The notes under the pieces: generated by a model
The model's input: only the letters and a program-made list of their open reading frames with translations
What the model was told of the DNA's origin: nothing
The model's database searches: none
Program-made: the position numbers and the translations under genes
Assembly (NCBI RefSeq): GCF_034259325.1
Contig: NZ_JAXIVS010000004.1
Coordinates: 124,001 to 188,000, forward strand
DNA from: Hyalangium ruber
Lineage (GTDB): Bacteria; Myxococcota; Myxococcia; Myxococcales; Myxococcaceae
Direction: 5' to 3'
Length of the DNA stretch: 64,000 nt
In this document: positions 52,214 through 63,031 of the stretch, one piece after another
Position numbering within the stretch: position 1 is the stretch's first letter
Layout of the letters: the number at the start of each line of letters is the position of its first letter

Positions 52214-53413
52214 ATGACGACCGCCCCGACGGATCCGGATCACCTGTCGCTGCGCGAGGCGATCCGCCAGGCGCTGGGGCAGGACACTCCCGATGAGGTG
52301 CTGGGAGGAGCGGTGGAGGCCCACACCGGGCGCGTGGCGTGGATCCAACAGCGGATCAGCGAGCCTCAGGGCCAGTACATGCCGGTGGACATCGACCTAC
52401 ATGTCGCTGGCGGCGGGCTCGCGCACACCTCGATGGCGGTGCCCACCTACAACCCCTACTTCGGCTGCAAGGTCGAGTTCGCGCGCTGGTGGGACGAGGC
52501 GCTGATCATCCTCTATAGCGAGAAGCACCTGACGCTCGTGGCGAGAATGGATCCGCCCTACGAGGCGCTGGAGTTGGTGCAGCTCCATTGGCCGTGGGCC
52601 GTGGTCGGCGACACTGTGTACTTCGTCTCGAGGCGCCCTGGACTGCTCGAAGGCAGGCTGCTGCCGTCCCTGGCGCCTGCCCTTCCGCTGCCGATGCCAC
52701 GGGCCTCGAATCTCCGGGCACTCGAGCCGCGCGACTCTGGGATGCTGGCGCTCGTGGAGCATCCTCCCTACGTGCCCGCGGAGGACGCCGCCGCTTTTCG
52801 CGCCAGGGCCGAGGCCGCGCGCACCGCCGCACGCCTCCTCCCCTTGCCACCTCCCGAAGCCCGCGCGCTCGTACTGGAGGCCCCGGAGAACGCGTGGGCG
52901 CGGTTGGAGGCGCTGCTTGAACCGACAGTGCCTCCGCCGTTCGGCGTGGACATCCTGGTGGGCTCGCTCGCCTCCCACTTCTGGAGAGACCCGGCATCGC
53001 GCGGGAGGAGCTACAACGCCGTCGCCAAGCGGGTCTGGAACACCCCTGAGTATCTGGCGGTGTACTGGTACCTGTACCTGGTGGCGGAGCGCCGCGCGGA
53101 GGAGGCTCACGCGTGGCTGGGCTGGCTGGATCAACTCGCGGCGCCCGAGGACGGGGAGCAAGAACCCTGGTTGCGCGACCTGACGGGCGCCGAGCTCGTG
53201 GCGAGGACTGCGCTGGCCTACATACGACTTCGTGCGGCGACGCTCGCGGAGGCGTGCCGCACGGGGAAGCTACCCGAGGGAGAGTCCTGCTTCCTCTTCA
53301 ACAGCCCTGATCGAATCGAGCCGTTCATGCGGGACACCCACTTCCCCCAGGGCTTCCGCGAGGCGCTGTGGCGCGTGGCCGCGCGGAAGCCGAAGTCCCT
53401 GTCCGAACGTTAG
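52214..53413 (+). CDS. Protein of unknown function (399 residues)
   Basis: 399 residues with no signal peptide or membrane segment, so probably cytoplasmic. The N-terminal half is rich in beta-like stretches with aromatic residues (VDIDLHVAGGGLAHTSMAVP, YNPYFGCKVEFARWWDEAL, LIILYSEKHLTLVARM); the C-terminal half is helical (EYLAVYWYLYLVAERRAEEA, TALAYIRLRAATLAEACRTG). I do not recognise the family. The start has only GGGG upstream. The stop codon overlaps the stop of the convergent gene at 53410 by 4 bases. Confidence 0.6.
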   Translation: MTTAPTDPDHLSLREAIRQALGQDTPDEVLGGAVEAHTGRVAWIQQRISEPQGQYMPVDIDLHVAGGGLAHTSMAVPTYNPYFGCKVEFARWWDEALIILYSEKHLTLVARMDPPYEALELVQLHWPWAVVGDTVYFVSRRPGLLEGRLLPSLAPALPLPMPRASNLRALEPRDSGMLALVEHPPYVPAEDAAAFRARAEAARTAARLLPLPPPEARALVLEAPENAWARLEALLEPTVPPPFGVDILVGSLASHFWRDPASRGRSYNAVAKRVWNTPEYLAVYWYLYLVAERRAEEAHAWLGWLDQLAAPEDGEQEPWLRDLTGAELVARTALAYIRLRAATLAEACRTGKLPEGESCFLFNSPDRIEPFMRDTHFPQGFREALWRVAARKPKSLSER

Positions 53414-54774
53414 AGGGGCGCGGACGGGATGGGCTCGGGCATACCGCGGGGCCGGGTGTAACCGAACCGCGTGCGGATGACCGCGCCGAAGGCCACCAGG
53501 GTGGCCAGCCCCATCACCACCGCGCCCACCACGGGGATGGCGCCCACCGCCAGCAACACGAACAGGCCGAGCGCGAGCACCGCCGCCTGCGTCTTGCGCC
53601 CGCGCAAGACTGGCACCCTCAGGCCAATCTCACTGGCCAGCACCGCCAGCCCCAGCGCCGCAGCCACCGGCGCCACCAGCCAGAGCGCCACCACCACCGG
53701 GATGCCCACGACCGTGATGGCCAGCACCGCCGTGATGGGGATCATCGCCAGCAGCCCCAGCAGCCCCGTGAGCCCGCTCTTGACCGGCTGACGCTGGATC
53801 TCCGCCGCCAGCTCCTTCATGCGCGCGGGGAAGAAGAGCTGCCCCAGGAAGCCCAGCCCGAAGAGCGCGGCGAACTGCAGCAGGAAGGCCGGAATGCCGC
53901 CTCCGCTGGACCGCTCCGTGTGCTCCTCGACGGTGGCTGCATTCTGGAGCTCCTTCTTGAGGCCGTCCTTCACCTCGCTGGCCACCAGTACGCCGATGTT
54001 CGCTCCTCCGAAGGACTCGGTGCTCCCCTCCACCCAGGTGCCATCCTCGCGGATGACCATGCCCCCGATGGCCGAGACATCCCCCTGGATGGCTGCCCCC
54101 TCGTGGAGGATGACGTTGCCGCCAAAGGCGTGCGCATCGCCCTCCACCACGCCGTAGATGTCCAGGTTGCCGCCGAAGGCCACCGCGTCCTCCTCCACGT
54201 GGCCCTTCACCAGCAGGTTGCCGCCGAAGACGACCGCATTGTCCACGGACTCGCCCTGCTTCACCTCCAGCGACTGACCGCGCGCCACCGCGTCCCGGTC
54301 GCCCTTGGCGCGGCGCTTGTGCACCTCCTGACGGACGCGCTCTTGAATCTCCCGGGTGTCGAGCTCATCGGCGGAGATGGAGGGCGGGGGCGGGGGCAGC
54401 GGAGGAGGAGGCAGCGCCGCCAGCTTCTCGGCCGCCGCCAGGGGCCGCAGCGTGAAGATGGAGCCGTCCTGGTCCAGCCGCAGCGAGTAGGTACGGGCCA
54501 GCGTGCGCAGGGCCTGCTCGGCGGTGACGTCCTGCAAGTGGACCTCGACGGCGGTGTCCAGCTCGCCCGTGGCCACCACGTTGAGGCCCCCTTCCTCGGC
54601 GATGTGCTTGAGCGCGTCCCGGAGCGTGCCCCGGAAGCTCACGTCCAGGGGCTTCGCGGGCGTCGCGGCGGTCGCCGGGGCCTCGGCCGCGGGGGGGAGG
54701 GGCGTCTCCTGGGCGAGGGCGACGGGCGCGCCGAGCAGGAGGGAGGGCAGCAGGAGGCGAGAGGCGAGCTTCAT
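53410..54774 (-). CDS. STN plus polymer-forming-repeat membrane protein
   Basis: 454 residues from the ATG at 54774. A signal peptide (ending ALAQE) and a secretin/TonB short N-terminal (STN) domain (about 28-95; DVSFRGTLRDALKHIAEEGG, ATGELDTAVEVHLQDV, LARTYSLRLDQDGSI) are followed by a Pro-rich stretch, then bactofilin-like beta-helix turns: AVVFGGNLLVKGHVEEDAV, AFGGNLDIYGVVEGDA, AFGGNVILHEGAAIQGDV, SAIGGMVIREDGTWVEG. Next come four or five TM helices (about 285-440). The combination would place a beta-helical stack outside the inner membrane. Functional role unknown; the parts are individually clear, and related proteins exist as polymer-forming cytoskeletal families. Confidence 0.7.
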   Translation of the reverse strand: MKLASRLLLPSLLLGAPVALAQETPLPPAAEAPATAATPAKPLDVSFRGTLRDALKHIAEEGGLNVVATGELDTAVEVHLQDVTAEQALRTLARTYSLRLDQDGSIFTLRPLAAAEKLAALPPPPLPPPPPSISADELDTREIQERVRQEVHKRRAKGDRDAVARGQSLEVKQGESVDNAVVFGGNLLVKGHVEEDAVAFGGNLDIYGVVEGDAHAFGGNVILHEGAAIQGDVSAIGGMVIREDGTWVEGSTESFGGANIGVLVASEVKDGLKKELQNAATVEEHTERSSGGGIPAFLLQFAALFGLGFLGQLFFPARMKELAAEIQRQPVKSGLTGLLGLLAMIPITAVLAITVVGIPVVVALWLVAPVAAALGLAVLASEIGLRVPVLRGRKTQAAVLALGLFVLLAVGAIPVVGAVVMGLATLVAFGAVIRTRFGYTRPRGMPEPIPSAPL

Positions 54775-54901
54775 GAGGGCACCCGGCAGAGCAGGAGGGT
54801 TCTTGCCCTCGTCTACGGGGCCGGTGTGCCGCGATTGCCTGCCTGGAGATTTTCGCTCCGTCCGACGCTGCTTGGACGCCCTCCTGCTAGGGTTTCCCGC
54901 C

Positions 54902-55690
54902 ATGCCGGCACCCACCACGGGCTTCTGGGGTACCAACACCTCGACGGTGGACTGGTGCGAGACGAACTACGAGCACCTGTACTCCGTCGCCGAGCTGTTC
55001 AACTCGGTCTCCAGCCTGGCCATGGTGCTGGCGGGCATCCTCGGCATCGCGCTCCACCGGAAGGTGCTGGAGCGGCGGTTCATGCTCGCCTTCGCCCTGG
55101 TGTCGGTGGTCGGCCTGGGCAGCATCGCCTTCCACGCGACGCTCCTGTTCCAGATGCAGATGATGGACGAGCTGCCGATGCTCTACCTCGCCATCGTGAT
55201 GGTCTACATCCTGGTGGAGAACCGCCCCGAGCGACGGTTCGGCCCCTGGTTCCCGCTGGCGCTGCTGGGCTACGCGGTGCTCTCCACCTACCTGTCGGCG
55301 TTCACTCGGGGGCGCCTCCAGTTCTTCCTGTTCCAGGCGAGCTTCGCGTCGCTAGAGCTCTTCGCCCTGGCGCGCGTCTACCTCATCCACCACCGCAGCC
55401 AGGACGTGAAGGGCCGGCGCATCTTCCAGGCCGGCATGGCCGCCTACGCGCTCGCCCTCGCGGTGTGGCTGAGCGACATCCACTTCTGTTCCACGCTCAA
55501 CCAGACGCTCCCCTCGCTGGGCATTCCCAATCCGCAGCTCCACGCGTGGTGGCACGTGCTGGTGTCCTGTGGGTTCTACGCGCTGCTGATGGTCATCGCC
55601 CACGACCGGATGAAGACGTTGGGCCAGGCGCCCCAGCTGCACTTCGCCGCCCGGGTGCTCCCGTTCGTGCGGGGCACAACGCCTCGATAG
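54902..55690 (+). CDS. Bacterial alkaline ceramidase (ACER/PHCa family)
   Basis: 262 residues, seven TM helices, a normal length for the family (about 260-275). Hydrolyses ceramide to sphingoid base and fatty acid in a membrane. The N-terminus GFWGTNTSTVDWCETNYEH is the family hallmark. Relative to human ACER3, all known site residues are present with constant spacing: calcium site Asp17, Trp18, Glu20, Asn22, Glu31; zinc and catalysis Ser74, His78, Asp89, His214, His218 (in FHATL, MDELPM and HAWWH). ACER3 numbering is Asp19 to Glu33, Ser77, His81, Asp92, His217, His221. The gene is divergent from the STN protein. Bacterial members are known, and myxobacteria make sphingolipids, so activity is plausible. 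Confidence 0.88.
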   Translation: MPAPTTGFWGTNTSTVDWCETNYEHLYSVAELFNSVSSLAMVLAGILGIALHRKVLERRFMLAFALVSVVGLGSIAFHATLLFQMQMMDELPMLYLAIVMVYILVENRPERRFGPWFPLALLGYAVLSTYLSAFTRGRLQFFLFQASFASLELFALARVYLIHHRSQDVKGRRIFQAGMAAYALALAVWLSDIHFCSTLNQTLPSLGIPNPQLHAWWHVLVSCGFYALLMVIAHDRMKTLGQAPQLHFAARVLPFVRGTTPR

Positions 55691-55697
55691 GGCGCAC

Positions 55698-56261
55698 CTA
55701 CACACCCGTGAACTTCGGGCCCGCGGCGCCCATGCGTGTCAACGCGCTCTTGATGTCACCCGAGACGATGAGCGTGCCCTCCCACCCCCAAGGGCGAAAC
55801 ACCTTGGCGTCCCCCACTCTCTCCTGGTCGATGCGCATATCGCGTACGTCCCGGTACCGACCGACCTTCTCAGGCACTCCATCTTCATGCGTCCAGAGTC
55901 GAATTCTGGATGCCTTCTCATCAATGCATCGGACACAGCGTGTCGCCACGAGGATGAGGTACTGATCCGGCTGGCCCTCGATGTCCACTGGGATGAGCTG
56001 GACATCCTGGGGAGCCAGTTCCGTGAAGAGGGACGCCACCTTGACGTGAACAACTGGAATCTTCAGTCCCGCCTCAGCGAAGTCGAGAGGCCTGCCCGCG
56101 TGCTCGACGCGTATCTTCAAGCGCCCCTCGATCCGCAGCGCCCGCCCCTCGGTAAACTGCCAGTCGTCTACCTCGCGTCCCTGCCCATCCGTAGGAGTCG
56201 CAAGATGCCAGCGGCGTGGGACATAAACGTCGTCGTACAGCTTGAAGAAGTGCTGGGGCAT
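55698..56261 (-). CDS. Imm11-type immunity protein
   Basis: 187 residues, soluble, no signal. The N-terminus FFKLYDDVYVPRRWHLATP followed by DDWQFTEGRALRIEG is the pattern of the Imm11 family (DUF1629-related), which in myxobacteria neutralises toxins of polymorphic or Sit-type systems, generally encoded directly upstream. Here only a short toxin-like C-terminal remnant precedes it (56270-56362), so it appears orphaned. Family assignment is by remembered pattern rather than by search. Its GC content is lower than that of neighbouring genes, with AT-ending codons (such as ATA and GTT), as for accessory toxin loci. Confidence 0.6.
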   Translation of the reverse strand: MPQHFFKLYDDVYVPRRWHLATPTDGQGREVDDWQFTEGRALRIEGRLKIRVEHAGRPLDFAEAGLKIPVVHVKVASLFTELAPQDVQLIPVDIEGQPDQYLILVATRCVRCIDEKASRIRLWTHEDGVPEKVGRYRDVRDMRIDQERVGDAKVFRPWGWEGTLIVSGDIKSALTRMGAAGPKFTGV

Positions 56262-56600: not shown

Positions 56601-56620
56601 GATGTTGAATGTTCAACATC
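56601..56620. promoter_or_regulatory. Perfect palindrome centred on the start codon of the trifunctional kinase
   Basis: GATGTTGAA-TG-TTCAACATC: 9-bp arms around 2 central bases, with the ATG at 56609-56611. The site could be a dimeric-regulator operator, or it could act in the RNA by folding the start codon and hindering initiation; a 2-base loop is too tight for a full hairpin, so an RNA stem would open to about 7 bp. Confidence 0.5.
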
Positions 56621-59600
56621 TCCGGATACACGCTTCGCGGCGCCATCAAGTCGACCGGAACGAATCTGCTGTTCCACGCGGTGCGAGACGCGGATGGCCT
56701 GCCCCTCATCCTGAAGACACCCATCGCCGCCTCCCCGGGCCCTCGGGAGCGAGAGCGCTACCGCCGCGAGTTCGGCCTCCTGCAACGGCTCCGAGACGTG
56801 CGCGGTGTCACCCGCGTCCATGCGTGCGAGCAGATCCACGACCGACCGGTGCTCCTCCTGGAGGAGGTGGCCGGCGAGTCGCTGGCTGACCTCACCGGCA
56901 AGCCGTTCGAGGTGGTGCGCGCCCTCGAGCTGACCCTCTCCGTGGCCGCGACGCTCGCGGAGCTCCACCGCCGCGGCGTCATCCACAAGGACATCAAGCC
57001 CTCCAACATCATCGTCACGCCCGCCGGAGAGCCGCGCCTCATCGACTTCGGCAGCGCCAGCCTCCAGCTCGTCGAGCACGTGGACGCCACCCAGGCCTCC
57101 CTCATCGAAGGCACGCTGGCCTACATGTCTCCGGAGCAGACCGGGCGCATGAACCGCGCGGTGGACTACCGCACGGACCTGTACTCCCTGGGGATTACGC
57201 TCTACGAGCTGCTCACGGGCAGCCGCCCCTTCCACGGGCGCGACGCGCTCGAGTGGTTCCATGCCCACATGGCCCAGGCGCCGCAGCCCCCGCACGAGCG
57301 GGTGAGGGAGCTGCCGCCCGTCCTGTCCGCCATCGTGCTCAAGCTGATGGCCAAGGTGGCCGAGGAGCGCTACCAGAGCGCCGAGGGACTCCAGGCGGAC
57401 CTCGAGCGCTGCCTGGAGGGCCTGAGCCGAGGGGTGCGCGAGGACTTCACCCCGGGCCTGCATGACGTGCCCTCGCGCTTCCAGCTCCCTCAGCGGCTCT
57501 ATGGTCGCGACGCCCACGCCAAGGCTCTGCTCCAGGGCTTCGAGCGCGTCGCCCAGGGCAGCCGGCCCGAGCTCATCCTGGTGCGCGGCTACTCCGGCAT
57601 CGGCAAGTCCGCGGTGGTTCACGAGCTGCACAAGCCCGTGGTGCGCCAGCGCGGCTTCTTCCTCCAGGGCAAGTTCGAACCGTTCCAGCAGGACATCCCC
57701 TACTCCACCCTGGCGCAGGCCATTCGCGGGCTGACGCAGCAGTTGCTCTCGGGCACCGACGAGGAGCTGGCGCGGTGGCGCGAGCACCTGCACGAGGCGT
57801 GGGAGGGCCAGGGCCAGGTCCTCGTGGACGTGGTGCCGCAGCTCGAGCTCATCGCCGGCAAGCAGCCGCCCGCTCCGGAGCTGTCGCCCGCCGAGGCCCA
57901 GCAGCGCTTCAACCGGACCTTCCGCAGGTTCCTGGGGGTGTTCGCCACCCCCGAGCACCCGCTGGTGGTGTTCCTGGATGATCTCCAGTGGGCGGACCTG
58001 GCCAGCCTCCAGCTCCTCCAGCACCTGCTCACCCACCCGGAGACACCGCCCGTCCTGCTGCTCGGGGCCTACCGCGACACCGAGGTGGGCCCCTCCCACC
58101 CGCTGGCGATGACCCTCGAGGAGCTGCACAAGGTCGGCGCCAGGCTGACGGACCTGCGGCTCGAGCCGCTGAGCCTGGGGGATGTCCGGCAGCTCGTCGC
58201 CGACACGCTCCCCGGCGCGGGCATGGAGGTCATCGAGCCGCTCTCCGTGCTGGCCCAGGAGAAGACCGGGGGCAACCCCTTCTTCCTGCTGCAGTTCCTG
58301 CTCACGCTCAACCAGGACGGCCTGCTGGTGCGCACCCCCGAGGGCAGGTGGCTCTGGGATGCCGAGGGCGTCCGAGCCAAGGGCTACTCCGACAACGTCG
58401 TGGACTTCATGGTGGGCAAGCTGCACCAGCTCCCCTCCCGGACGCAGCACCTGCTGCGGCTGGCGGCGTGCGTGGGCAACAGCTTCCCCCTGCGAATCCT
58501 CCACCTCATCTCCGACCTGGATGAGGCGCTCGAGGTGGAACATGGCCTCGAGTCCGCGCTCCAAGAGGGCCTGCTGGCGAGCTCGGGGCCGGAGCAGTAC
58601 CGCTTCCTCCATGACCGCATCCAACAGGCGGCCTACGCCCTCCTTTCCCAGGAAGAGCACAAGGCCGTCCACCTGCGCATCGGCCGCTTGTTGCTACAGA
58701 GCCTGTCGCCCGAGGAGCTCCAGGAGCACCTCTTCGACGTGGTGAGCCAGCTCAACGCCGGGGCAGGGCTGCTCACCGAGCTCCCGGAGCTCCATCAGGC
58801 CGCGCGCCTCAACGCCGAGGCGGGAGCGCGGGCCCAGGCCTCGACCGCGTTCCGCTCCGCGTCAAACTACCTCGCCATGGCCTTCCAGCTCCTCCCCGGA
58901 GACCCCTGGGAGGCGGACCCCGCGCTGGCCTTCAAGGTCCGGCTGGAGCAGGCCCGCTGCGAGTTCATGAGCGGCAATGCCTCCGAGGCGCGCCGGTTGG
59001 TGGAGGAGCTCCGGCCCCGGCCGCGCACCCGGATGGAGACGGCGGCCCTGTACCGGCTGAAGAATGATCTCCTCATCGGCGCCGGAGAGATTCAAGCCGC
59101 GCTCGACAGCCTGCTGGAGGGCCTCGCGCTGATGGGCATGGCGATGCCACCGCACCCTTCGTGGGAAGAGGTGGCGGCGGCCAACGCGGAGGTGTGGTCG
59201 CTCCTGGGAGACCGTCCCATCGCGAGCCTCGTCGACCTGCCTCGAATGACGGACCCGGACATGGAGGCGGTGATGAGCATGCTGGCCGCCTTGTACGCGC
59301 CCGCGTTCTTGACGGACCTCAACCTGCTCATCCTCCACCTCTGCAAGCTGGTCTCCTTCAGCTTGCGCCATGGCAACACGGCCGCCTCCGTTCCCGGCTA
59401 CTCCTCATACGGGCTGGTGCTGGGGCCTGCCTTCAAGCGCTACCGGGAGGGCCATGCCTTCGGCCAGCTCGCCCTGGCGCTCGTCGAACGTCCCGAGCTG
59501 GCCTCCCTGCGCGCGGTGGCGTTCTATGGGATGGAGACGATCAGCTATTGGACCCAGCCCCTCTCCGTCTCCCTGGAGCTCATCCGCAAGGCCTTCCATC

Positions 59601-61888
59601 ACGCCATCCAGGCCAGTGACTTCCAGATCGCCGGCTACTGCTGCAACCACATCCTCACGGACCGCCTCGCCCTGGGGCACGAGCTGGAGGAGGTGTACCA
59701 GGAGTCCGTCGCACGCCTGGACTTCGCGCGCAAAGCCGGCTTCCTGGACGTGCGGGACATCGTCCACTTCACCCAGCGCCATGTGCAGCAGCTCCGGGGC
59801 TTCACCCCCTCGTTCCACTCCATGAGCGGTGAGGACTTCACCGAGGAGGACTTCGAGGCCACGCTGACCCCCGCGCGCATGGTCATCATGCGGTGCTGGT
59901 ACTGGGTCATCAAGATGCAGTCGCGCTTCATGTGCGGCGCGTACGAGGAGGCGCGGGAGGCGGGAGAGAAGGCCGCCGCGCTGATCTGGTCCTCGATGGG
60001 CCATATCCAGCTCGTGGACTTCCACCTCTACCGCGCGCTCACCCTGGCGGCGTGCCTGCGTGAGCGCCCCTCCGTGGAACAGGGGCCTCACCTGGAGGCC
60101 ATCCAACAGCACCAGCGACAGCTCGCGGAGTGGGCGAGCTACTGCCCGGAGAACTTCCGCGCGCCCGAGCGCATGGTGTTCGCGGAGCTGGCCCGCCTCT
60201 CGGGCCGCGAGGCCGAGGCGCTGCGTGCCTACGAAGAGGCGCTCCATGCGGCGCGGGAGCACGGCTTCATCCAGCACGCGGCCCTCGCGAGCGAGCTGGG
60301 CGCCCGCTTCTGGTTCGAGCGGAAGGTACACACCCTCGGAGACGCCTACGCGCGCAAGGCCCGGGAGGCCTACGTGCGCTGGGGAGCCTGGGGGAAGCTG
60401 CGGCACCTGGACGACCAGTGGCCGCACCTGGCCTCCACCGTGCCCGCCGAAGAGACCCTCACGGACACGGACTCCACGCAGATCGACGCGCTCACCGTGG
60501 TGAAGGCCCAGCAGGCCATCTCCGGGGAGATCGTCCTCGAGCGGCTGGCGGACACGCTGCTGAAGGTGGCCATCGAGAACGCGGGGGCCCAGCGCGGCGC
60601 CCTGCTGCTGCCGCACGGCGGCAAGCTCTCGGTGGTGGCGATGCAGGGGCTCGGGCCGGAGAGTTCCTCCAGTGGCTCGCGGGAGGAGAACCTGCCGTGG
60701 AACCTCATCACCTACGTGCGGCGCACGCGGGAGCACGTGCTCATCGGTGATGCCTCCCTGCCCCACCCGTTCTCCTCGGATGCGTGGCTGGCTCGCGGCG
60801 GAGCGCGCTCGGTGCTCTGCCTGCCGCTGCTGCGCCAGGAGGAGTTCCGTGGGGTGCTGTACCTGGAGAACAGCCTGGCCACCAACGCCTTCACGCGGGC
60901 GCGCAGCACCCTGCTCGGGCACCTGGCCTCGCAGGCGGCCATCTCCATCGAGAACGCGCGGCTGTATGCCGATGTGCAGCGCGCGGAGGGTGCCCTGCGC
61001 CGCGCCAATGACGAGCTGGAGAAGCGGGTGGAGGAGCGCACCCGGGAGCTCAAGCAGGCCCAGGCCCAGCTGGTGGACACCGCGCGCTCGGCGGGCATGG
61101 CCGAGGTGGCCGCCAACGTGCTCCACAACGTGGGTAACGTGCTGACCAGCGCCGTCATCAACGTCCAGACGCTGAGCCAGACGGTGGGTAGCTCTCGCGT
61201 GGGGCGGGTGAAGCAGGTCTCCTCGATGCTCGAGGCGAACCAGAACGCCCTGGCTGACTTCCTCACGCGAGATGGGCGAGGGGTCCGGCTGCCGCAGTAT
61301 CTGGCGGGGCTCGCCGACGAGCTGCTGCGGGAGCATTCGACGCTGCAGGAGGGCCTGGAGGCGATGAGCAAACACATCGAGCACATCCGGGCGATCGTCC
61401 AGGTGCAGCAGAACTACGCCCGGAACACGCTCGTGACGGAGGAGTGCGAGCTGCTGCACCTCGTCGAGGACGCCTTGAGCATCCAGATGCCGGCGCTCAA
61501 GCGCCACGGCATCGACGTCATCCGGGGCATGTCCGCCAACGCCCGGCTCCGGGTGGACAAGCACAAGGTGCTGCAGATCCTGATCAACCTCCTGAGCAAC
61601 GCCAAGAACGCGATGAACTCGCTGCCCAGCGGCGCGCGCACGCTGCACATCGAGGTCACCACGGAGGCCACCGTGGCGCGCGTGCAGGTGGTGGACAACG
61701 GCATGGGTATCGCACCGGAGCTGCACGAGCGGCTCTTCTCCCAGGGCTTCACCACGCGCGAAGGGGGACACGGCCTGGGCCTGCACTCCAGCGCACTGGC
61801 GGCGCGGATGCTGGGAGGGAGACTCACACTGGAGAGCGAAGGGCCGGGCAAGGGCGCCACGGCGACGCTGGAGCTGCCCCTGGCATAG
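56609..61888 (+). CDS. Trifunctional Ser/Thr kinase - AAA ATPase - histidine kinase
   Basis: 1759 residues. An N-terminal Ser/Thr kinase-like domain (about 1-270) has an atypical glycine loop but keeps a Lys in LILKTP, HKDIKPSN (126-133, HKD in place of HRD), DFG and YMSPEQTGRMN. An AAA_16-type ATPase follows (about 290-620) with Walker A GYSGIGKS (327-334) and Walker B VVFLDDLQWADL. Then about 650 residues of helical TPR-like solenoid, a GAF domain (about 1300-1450; ARSVLCLPLLRQEEFRGVLY), a coiled coil and a histidine kinase with phospho-acceptor His1506 in NVLHNVGN and G boxes DNGMGI and GGHGLGLHSSAL. No TM helix is seen, so it is cytoplasmic. The degenerate loop means kinase activity may be weak. 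Confidence 0.9.
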   Translation: MFNISGYTLRGAIKSTGTNLLFHAVRDADGLPLILKTPIAASPGPRERERYRREFGLLQRLRDVRGVTRVHACEQIHDRPVLLLEEVAGESLADLTGKPFEVVRALELTLSVAATLAELHRRGVIHKDIKPSNIIVTPAGEPRLIDFGSASLQLVEHVDATQASLIEGTLAYMSPEQTGRMNRAVDYRTDLYSLGITLYELLTGSRPFHGRDALEWFHAHMAQAPQPPHERVRELPPVLSAIVLKLMAKVAEERYQSAEGLQADLERCLEGLSRGVREDFTPGLHDVPSRFQLPQRLYGRDAHAKALLQGFERVAQGSRPELILVRGYSGIGKSAVVHELHKPVVRQRGFFLQGKFEPFQQDIPYSTLAQAIRGLTQQLLSGTDEELARWREHLHEAWEGQGQVLVDVVPQLELIAGKQPPAPELSPAEAQQRFNRTFRRFLGVFATPEHPLVVFLDDLQWADLASLQLLQHLLTHPETPPVLLLGAYRDTEVGPSHPLAMTLEELHKVGARLTDLRLEPLSLGDVRQLVADTLPGAGMEVIEPLSVLAQEKTGGNPFFLLQFLLTLNQDGLLVRTPEGRWLWDAEGVRAKGYSDNVVDFMVGKLHQLPSRTQHLLRLAACVGNSFPLRILHLISDLDEALEVEHGLESALQEGLLASSGPEQYRFLHDRIQQAAYALLSQEEHKAVHLRIGRLLLQSLSPEELQEHLFDVVSQLNAGAGLLTELPELHQAARLNAEAGARAQASTAFRSASNYLAMAFQLLPGDPWEADPALAFKVRLEQARCEFMSGNASEARRLVEELRPRPRTRMETAALYRLKNDLLIGAGEIQAALDSLLEGLALMGMAMPPHPSWEEVAAANAEVWSLLGDRPIASLVDLPRMTDPDMEAVMSMLAALYAPAFLTDLNLLILHLCKLVSFSLRHGNTAASVPGYSSYGLVLGPAFKRYREGHAFGQLALALVERPELASLRAVAFYGMETISYWTQPLSVSLELIRKAFHHAIQASDFQIAGYCCNHILTDRLALGHELEEVYQESVARLDFARKAGFLDVRDIVHFTQRHVQQLRGFTPSFHSMSGEDFTEEDFEATLTPARMVIMRCWYWVIKMQSRFMCGAYEEAREAGEKAAALIWSSMGHIQLVDFHLYRALTLAACLRERPSVEQGPHLEAIQQHQRQLAEWASYCPENFRAPERMVFAELARLSGREAEALRAYEEALHAAREHGFIQHAALASELGARFWFERKVHTLGDAYARKAREAYVRWGAWGKLRHLDDQWPHLASTVPAEETLTDTDSTQIDALTVVKAQQAISGEIVLERLADTLLKVAIENAGAQRGALLLPHGGKLSVVAMQGLGPESSSSGSREENLPWNLITYVRRTREHVLIGDASLPHPFSSDAWLARGGARSVLCLPLLRQEEFRGVLYLENSLATNAFTRARSTLLGHLASQAAISIENARLYADVQRAEGALRRANDELEKRVEERTRELKQAQAQLVDTARSAGMAEVAANVLHNVGNVLTSAVINVQTLSQTVGSSRVGRVKQVSSMLEANQNALADFLTRDGRGVRLPQYLAGLADELLREHSTLQEGLEAMSKHIEHIRAIVQVQQNYARNTLVTEECELLHLVEDALSIQMPALKRHGIDVIRGMSANARLRVDKHKVLQILINLLSNAKNAMNSLPSGARTLHIEVTTEATVARVQVVDNGMGIAPELHERLFSQGFTTREGGHGLGLHSSALAARMLGGRLTLESEGPGKGATATLELPLA

Positions 61889-62056
61889 CGTGCTTCGCGC
61901 GAGAACCCGCTCCTGCCCTCGGGCATCGGGGTGTGGCTGAAGGAGCAGAAAGTCGACATTTCCCGACCTGCCCAGCGCACGTGCTGCCTGTGACATGAAC
62001 ACGTTACAATGTCTCGTGGGCATCGAAACACGCCAGGCCCAGAGGCGGAGTTCACG

Positions 62057-63031
62057 TTGAGGACTACCCAGATACCTGAGCTCTATTGCCCGTTTCCCTC
62101 GTTGATCAGCCCGCACGTCGAAGCCGTCCAGCACCAGGTCAATCAATGGATGCAGGCTCGGCGCTACTTCCAGACCAAGGCCTCGTTCGAACGCTTCAAC
62201 GCGGCCAAGTTCGCCTGGTTGACGGGGCGCGTTCATCCGGACGCCAGCTTCGAATCCATCCTCATCGTCGCCACCTACATGAGCTGGCTGTTCATGGTGG
62301 ATGACCTCTATGACGAAGCCGCGCTCGGCCGAGACCCGGAGCGCCTGAAGGCCCAGCACCACGAGCTGATCGATCGCATGAAGCACCCGCGTCCCCTGCG
62401 CGGGGGAGAGAGCCCCGTAGTCGTAGGCCTGGCCGACATCTGGGAGCGGATGCTCCTGCGCGCCGCGCCCGGCTGGACCGAGCGCTTCATCCAGACCTTC
62501 GAGGGCTACGCCTACGCCTGCGTGTGGGAGGCGGAGAACCGCGTCAACAACCGGGTCCCCCCCCTGGCGGAGTACATGGAGTTCCGGCGCCACACGTCCG
62601 CGCTCTACGTCTTCTTCTCCCTCATCGAGTTCGTCGAACACATGACGCTGACCCCGGAGCTCATCCCCCACGTCCACGAGCTGGAGGTGCGCGCCGACGA
62701 TGGCGTCTCCTGGGTCAACGACATGCTCTCGCTCGAGAAAGAAGCGCGGGCCGGAGACGTCCACAACCTCGTCATCGTCCTACAGCACGAGCGCGGGCTG
62801 AGCGTCCAGGAGGCCATGGACCAGGCCGCGCGCCTCTTCAACACCCGGATGCGGGAATACGTCGAGATCGAGCAGCGCATGCCCTCCTTCGGCGTCGAAA
62901 CCGATGTGCTGCTCCAGCGCTACCTCAGGGGCCTGCGCTGCTGGGTCCGCGGCAACCTCGACTGGTCCTATGAGTCGGGGCGCTATGAGCGCGCGCTGTC
63001 CCCGCCCGCGTTGATCCGGGCCGCTTCATGA
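62057..63031 (+). CDS. Class I terpene synthase
   Basis: 324 residues from a TTG at 62057, preferred because AGGCGGAG lies 6 bases upstream and because related enzymes start just before the ELYCPFP motif; the ATG at 62009 adds 16 residues but has no ribosome site. Converts prenyl diphosphates to cyclic terpenes. Metal-binding motifs are DDLYDE (82-87, the DDxxxD box) and NDMLSLEKE (221-229, a perfect NSE triad), with FRRHT (176-180) as the diphosphate sensor. The N-terminus CPFPSLISPHVE is typical of bacterial sesquiterpene cyclases. Product not predictable. No P450 or prenyltransferase gene lies beside it. The 3-prime end overlaps the convergent histidine kinase gene by 6 bases. Confidence 0.88.
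   Translation: MRTTQIPELYCPFPSLISPHVEAVQHQVNQWMQARRYFQTKASFERFNAAKFAWLTGRVHPDASFESILIVATYMSWLFMVDDLYDEAALGRDPERLKAQHHELIDRMKHPRPLRGGESPVVVGLADIWERMLLRAAPGWTERFIQTFEGYAYACVWEAENRVNNRVPPLAEYMEFRRHTSALYVFFSLIEFVEHMTLTPELIPHVHELEVRADDGVSWVNDMLSLEKEARAGDVHNLVIVLQHERGLSVQEAMDQAARLFNTRMREYVEIEQRMPSFGVETDVLLQRYLRGLRCWVRGNLDWSYESGRYERALSPPALIRAAS

Follow-up and report, generated by a model that had tools for sequence, protein, structure and literature searches.

A true alkaline ceramidase very probably exists in some bacteria, judging from a gene of the myxobacterium Hyalangium ruber whose predicted product combines the fold of human ACER3 with its calcium, zinc and disulfide sites. We put the probability at roughly three in four that this product is an ACER-group alkaline ceramidase integral to the membrane, likely serving the turnover or remodelling of the cell's own ceramide. 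Enzymes of this kind have been described from animals, plants and fungi, and the membership of bacterial proteins in the calcium-bearing core of the group appears to be undescribed in the literature searched. A 2011 survey of the CREST proteins listed alkaline ceramidases only from eukaryotes and placed the bacterial relatives in separate, untested "hypothetical" groups (PMC3146951); NCBI names such bacterial proteins only "ceramidase domain-containing protein", and no study of a bacterial alkaline ceramidase was found in the literature searched, a scope that lies mostly outside subscription papers. The myxococcal ceramidase of PMC3131387 is ASAH2, which is of the neutral type, and is not the ACER-like enzyme. 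Our analysis sets apart from the CREST hypothetical groups a class of bacterial proteins in which the eukaryotic calcium-zinc module is complete. It also offers, for the disputed topology and calcium control of the ACER enzymes, a model of bacterial origin that is likely to be easier to express.

Identification of an ACER-class gene

The window, a stretch of 64,000 nucleotides from the H. ruber genome, contains a 262-aa open frame with an ATG start at 54902-55690 (+), exactly as the initial annotation had described it (Table 1). A longer version beginning at an in-frame GTG at 54503 was rejected, since the alignment of the relatives begins around the ATG instead. The Pfam Ceramidase family PF05875 matches residues 11-245 with 206 bits (E 6.8e-61; curated cut-off 32.5) and human ACER3 (6g7o) is the sole sequence match in the whole PDB (E 1.4e-31), values that exclude a chance resemblance; the identity to human ACER3 is 30% over 225 residues. 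PF05875 is the only family that Pfam finds in the protein, the neutral ceramidase domain PF04734 being absent. The window has 69% GC and the gene a GC3 of 0.95, so that by its native-like codon use the gene reads as native or long-settled; a promoter and terminator scan at the gene detected nothing.

The AlphaFold model of the protein, for which the input alignment consisted of the window and the fetched loci only, has a pLDDT of 94.6 and a pTM of 0.90. Foldseek ranks 6g7o first (E 1.6e-11), as the sole match below 0.001, and VIA-align superimposes the model on ACER3 6g7o with Z 29.1 and 2.3 A over 234 residues, compared with Z up to 17.6 for SIDT proteins and about 14 for adiponectin receptors. 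These CREST proteins (AdipoR and SIDT1/2) have the same fold and the same H3-S-D zinc site but lie further away, at Z 13-18 rather than 29 and at 10-15% identity.

Table 1. Positions in the window of the ACER-class gene, its aligned sites and its divergent neighbour.
Feature	Position	Strand	Basis or remark
Divergent neighbour, STN-like domain, outside the system	53410..54939	-	Not seen next to other ACER genes
Gene of the alkaline-ceramidase class; 262 aa with seven transmembrane helices	54902..55690	+	PF05875 E 6.8e-61; ACER3 E 1.4e-31; model Z 29.1 to 6g7o
Calcium loop D17-W18-C19-E20-T21-N22, including the first disulfide cysteine, C19	54950..54967	+	Aligned to ACER3 D19-N24
E31, calcium ligand linking to the zinc site (ACER3 E33)	54992..54994	+	Alignment; E in 35/35 class-1 proteins
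SxxxH motif, S74 and zinc ligand H78	55121..55135	+	ACER3 S77/H81
D89, catalytic acid/base	55166..55168	+	ACER3 D92
TM3 tunnel L96, A97, M100 (ACER3 S99, C100, F103), polar contacts lost	55187..55201	+	Alignment
TM5 tunnel F148 (ACER3 Y149), E152 (ACER3 V153)	55343..55357	+	F 33/35, E 33/35 in class 1
C196, partner of C19 in an ACER3-type disulfide	55487..55489	+	Aligned to ACER3 C196
HxxxH with zinc ligands H214 and H218; carbonyl contact W217 (ACER3 W220)	55541..55555	+	Alignment

Calcium, zinc and disulfide sites

In an alignment of bacterial PF05875 domains with human ACER3, residues D17, W18, E20, N22 and E31 fall in the calcium columns (D19, W20, E22, N24 and E33 of ACER3), H78, H214 and H218 in the zinc columns (H81, H217 and H221), and S74 and D89 in the catalytic columns (S77 and D92); these calcium, zinc and catalytic roles are the ones given to the aligned residues by the ACER3 structure paper (PMC6303388). 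All ten residues that the initial annotation had named are thus found in ACER3 site columns, and the matching spacing that it claimed holds overall, with a one-residue shift, the offset to ACER3 numbering changing from -2 in the N-terminal loop to -3 at S77 and beyond. The AEF motif around the ACER3 glutamate reads AEL here, with E31 kept and F replaced by L. By mutagenesis E22, N24 and E33 matter in ACER3, E33 being the leukodystrophy residue (PMC6303388), and mutation of the ACER3 zinc site abolishes activity or, for S77A, lowers it ~600-fold (PMC9436119).

A further pair of residues, which was missing from that initial list, is also present: C19 and C196 align with C21 and C196, the disulfide pair of ACER3 (PMC6303388). 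Human ACER3 and the bacterial protein therefore have in common the seven-helix fold, the H3-S-D zinc site, the D-W-E-N-E calcium site, the disulfide cysteines and the W220 contact; they differ in the charge pattern and in the acyl tunnel, as described below.

Two classes of bacterial PF05875 proteins

One scan of the genome collection extended as far as close Myxococcaceae relatives, so that the protein may also occur in other phyla. The bacterial relatives examined fall into two classes. Class 1 comprises 35 bacterial proteins, all from Myxococcota, that have all twelve sites, and DWCExN is present in every one of them. Class 2 comprises 25 other Myxococcota PF05875 proteins, in every one of which the H3-S-D site and the two cysteines are retained but the full calcium set is lacking (0/25); at the D19 position 22/25 have K, C, S or A, and N24 is kept in a single protein (1/25). 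Since the catalytic site is retained in these 25 proteins without the full calcium set, the latter is not merely carried along with the fold. The H. ruber genome itself has a second PF05875 copy (G000:C1:237851-238468; L002, L078:7944-8699) with 19% identity, in which the catalytic site and the cysteines are kept and KWCETE replaces the calcium loop; this paralogue provides a natural comparison without the calcium site in the same genome. A 285-aa frame with no Pfam family overlaps the gene of this paralogue by 4 bp. More broadly, the other bacterial PF05875 proteins share with the 262-aa protein the Pfam family, the catalytic site, both cysteines and the charge bias, but they differ in having about 20% identity and an incomplete calcium set (KWCETE, CFCExQ and similar), and most are in genomes without serine palmitoyltransferase (SPT); they are probably the CREST hypothetical groups 1/2.

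A phylogeny of the family with eukaryotic ACERs had been proposed as a check. In our tree, in which human ACER3 is the only eukaryotic sequence, ACER3 lies on the class-1 side of a 100/100 branch separating it from class 2; with that one eukaryotic sequence, placing ACER3 inside or beside bacterial class 1 gives AU p 0.32-0.43. Both placements relative to class 1 are compatible with the data. Two class-1 proteins from other Myxococcota families (L051 from G124 and L052 from G128) group with human ACER3 in this tree.

Outside Myxococcaceae the ACER class is found in G035, G132 (a fragment), G189, G124 and G128 only. The assemblies of G035 and G132 are drafts, and the copy in G035 nests within Myxococcaceae; transfer or contamination is therefore possible for these. 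Relatives of the 262-aa protein were found on none of the plasmids, phages or viral contigs, which leaves carriage on mobile elements unsupported and supplied the tree with no sequence from a eukaryotic virus. Plasmid-borne PF05875 genes do occur in Hymenobacter (L088) and Leptospira (L089); they are nearer to the class-2 paralogue, and their neighbours are genes for heavy-metal efflux and regulators, or TonB/HmuY-type iron uptake genes.

Membrane orientation

Positively charged residues are distributed very unevenly over the predicted loops of the 262-aa protein, with a K+R count of 2 on the calcium/zinc face and 14 on the opposite face. The class-1 means are 2.7 on the site face and 13.9 opposite, and all 60 bacterial proteins of classes 1 and 2 are biased the same way. 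By the positive-inside rule, loops rich in K and R mark the cytoplasmic face of a membrane protein. We therefore read the sparsely charged face of the H. ruber protein, with 2 K+R against 14, as periplasmic: the charge pattern suggests that the calcium and zinc sites face the periplasm, a location that would suit both a disulfide and a calcium site.

The topology of the ACER enzymes is itself disputed, and here the predicted placement of the site face outside differs from that proposed for human ACER3, of which the N-terminus was found to be cytoplasmic by TR-FRET (PMC6303388). On the strength of that result the bacterial protein could be a ceramidase with its active face in the cytoplasm, regulated by cytoplasmic calcium; we consider this quite unlikely, since the K+R bias of 14 versus 2, uniform across the 60/60 bacterial proteins, opposes it and the cytosolic C-terminus of ACER2 (PMC3146951) fits a periplasmic site face. 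The catalytic residues of ACERs have also been placed on the luminal side (PMC9436119).

The acyl tunnel and the probable substrate

In ACER3 a polar ring of S99, C100, Y149 and S228 surrounds the C18:1 double bond of a docked ceramide, and the Y149A mutation reduces activity (PMC6303388). These four residues are L, A, F and F in the H. ruber protein and in most class-1 proteins, and the position of V153 in TM5 is a conserved glutamate in class 1 (E152 here); the carbonyl contact W220 is kept as W217. Y149, V153 and S228 are as in human ACER3 in 2/35 class-1 proteins, which from the alignment blocks appear to be L051 and L052. The tunnel is thus hydrophobic where that of ACER3 is polar, which suggests saturated or branched substrates, and we infer that unsaturated acyl chains are not what the Myxococcaceae enzyme is adapted to. 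For this reason C18:1 ceramide, which had been put forward as an assay substrate alongside iso-branched ceramides, is a doubtful choice.

Co-occurrence with sphingolipid synthesis

The description of the host as sphingolipid-making is borne out by an SPT in the H. ruber genome (L082; E 7e-121 to solved SPTs), which is consistent with the myxobacterial SPT subgroup (PMC9386255). The genome also encodes two full-length neutral ceramidases (L084 and L085, at G000:C2:236879-238303 and G000:C6:46254-47675), the N-termini of which, judged by eye, resemble lipoprotein signals (LATGC and LGACG). Neutral ceramidases are, as had rightly been stated at the outset, the enzymes usually credited with ceramide hydrolysis in bacteria; but two of them are present here as well, so the ACER-like enzyme is an addition to them. 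By reaction the neutral ceramidases (PF04734) are likewise zinc-dependent ceramide amidases; they differ in their unrelated soluble fold and, here, in their apparent lipoprotein signal peptides.

Among 96 Myxococcaceae genomes, with an SPT orthologue defined by 75% identity or more, the ACER class is present in 31/71 genomes with the orthologue and in 0/25 without it (p 1e-5 by genome and 0.006 by genus, from counts that ignore kinship). The class-2 protein shows the reverse, being found in 6/71 SPT-bearing and 18/25 SPT-less genomes, counts that again ignore kinship; its occurrence mostly in SPT-less genomes suggests a substrate other than self-made ceramide. Outside Myxococcaceae the co-occurrence is weak, G189 being the only ACER-class genome with a clear SPT relative. 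Absence of the ACER class from 40/71 SPT-bearing Myxococcaceae shows that it is not needed for sphingolipid life.

Proposed mechanism and alternative explanations

We infer the activity, calcium dependence, orientation, substrate and role of the ACER-like enzyme as follows. H78, H214 and H218 would hold a zinc ion, with its water placed by S74 and D89, and the zinc-bound water would attack the amide bond of a ceramide accommodated in the tunnel within the membrane, splitting it into a sphingoid base and a fatty acid. Calcium would be bound by the DWCExN loop and E31 and would prop the zinc site through W18 and E31, and a C19-C196 disulfide would fasten the calcium loop to helix 6; the site face would lie in the oxidising, calcium-exposed periplasm. 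The enzyme probably acts on the cell's own ceramide in addition to the neutral ceramidases, and its role would be the turnover or remodelling of non-glycosylated (dihydro)ceramide; sphingoid-base release is accordingly predicted to belong to myxobacterial lipid physiology. A more specific version, which we offer tentatively and regard as doubtful when all its parts are taken together, is a periplasm-facing, calcium-dependent alkaline ceramidase for saturated or iso-branched dihydroceramides that forms one clade with the eukaryotic ACERs, the module having been born in bacteria or transferred between domains.

The assignment to the alkaline ceramidase group, as initially proposed, is well supported by the sites, the predicted fold, the phylogeny and the comparison with the paralogue. 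What speaks against the alkaline ceramidase reading is the set of altered tunnel residues, the lack of a nearby sphingolipid gene or conserved context, the two neutral ceramidases already in the genome and the weakness of the SPT co-occurrence outside Myxococcaceae. Three other explanations have to be weighed against it. The protein could share the fold but be a zinc-dependent amidase or esterase that acts on another acylated lipid of the myxobacterial envelope and not on ceramide, as would fit a tunnel that diverges from that of ACER3 and has a buried, conserved glutamate in TM5, ester-acting CREST relatives such as Per1 (PMC3146951), and the 40 SPT-bearing Myxococcaceae genomes that lack the gene; we judge this unlikely, given that the full ACER calcium set and W217 are kept and that within Myxococcaceae only SPT-bearing genomes have the class. 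The same confinement to genomes with their own SPT argues against a ceramidase directed at prey or eukaryotic lipids, an idea raised in the initial annotation and one that a patchy distribution and unrelated gene contexts, resembling those of an accessory gene of predators, might seem to favour. With the protein embedded in the membrane and lacking a secretion signal, this idea is unsupported, and the two neutral ceramidases with apparent lipoprotein signals would suit the task better; we regard it as very improbable. Finally, bacterial members of CREST often carry the name hemolysin III (PMC3146951), and a non-enzymatic or pore-forming protein of that type is conceivable in principle, but the catalytic site is complete, a Pfam/NCBIfam search of the 262-aa protein at E 0.01 gave no match to the hemolysin III / PAQR family, and ACER3 is the best structural match by a wide margin, which makes this explanation exceedingly improbable.

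Genomic neighbourhood

No sphingolipid gene was found near the ACER-like gene, and around ACER genes no conserved gene context is shared beyond close relatives, a pattern that favours repeated relocation or loss over an operon. The divergent neighbour, as called, overlaps the start of the ACER-like gene; its true start is likely near 54777, giving an intergenic gap of ~120 bp. Elsewhere in the window are an Imm11-family protein at 55698-56261 (-), with no evident toxin gene immediately adjoining, a Terpene synthase family 2 protein at 62009-63031 (+), and, at 56609-61888 (+), a 1759-aa fusion of a Ser/Thr kinase, an AAA ATPase, a GAF domain and a histidine kinase.
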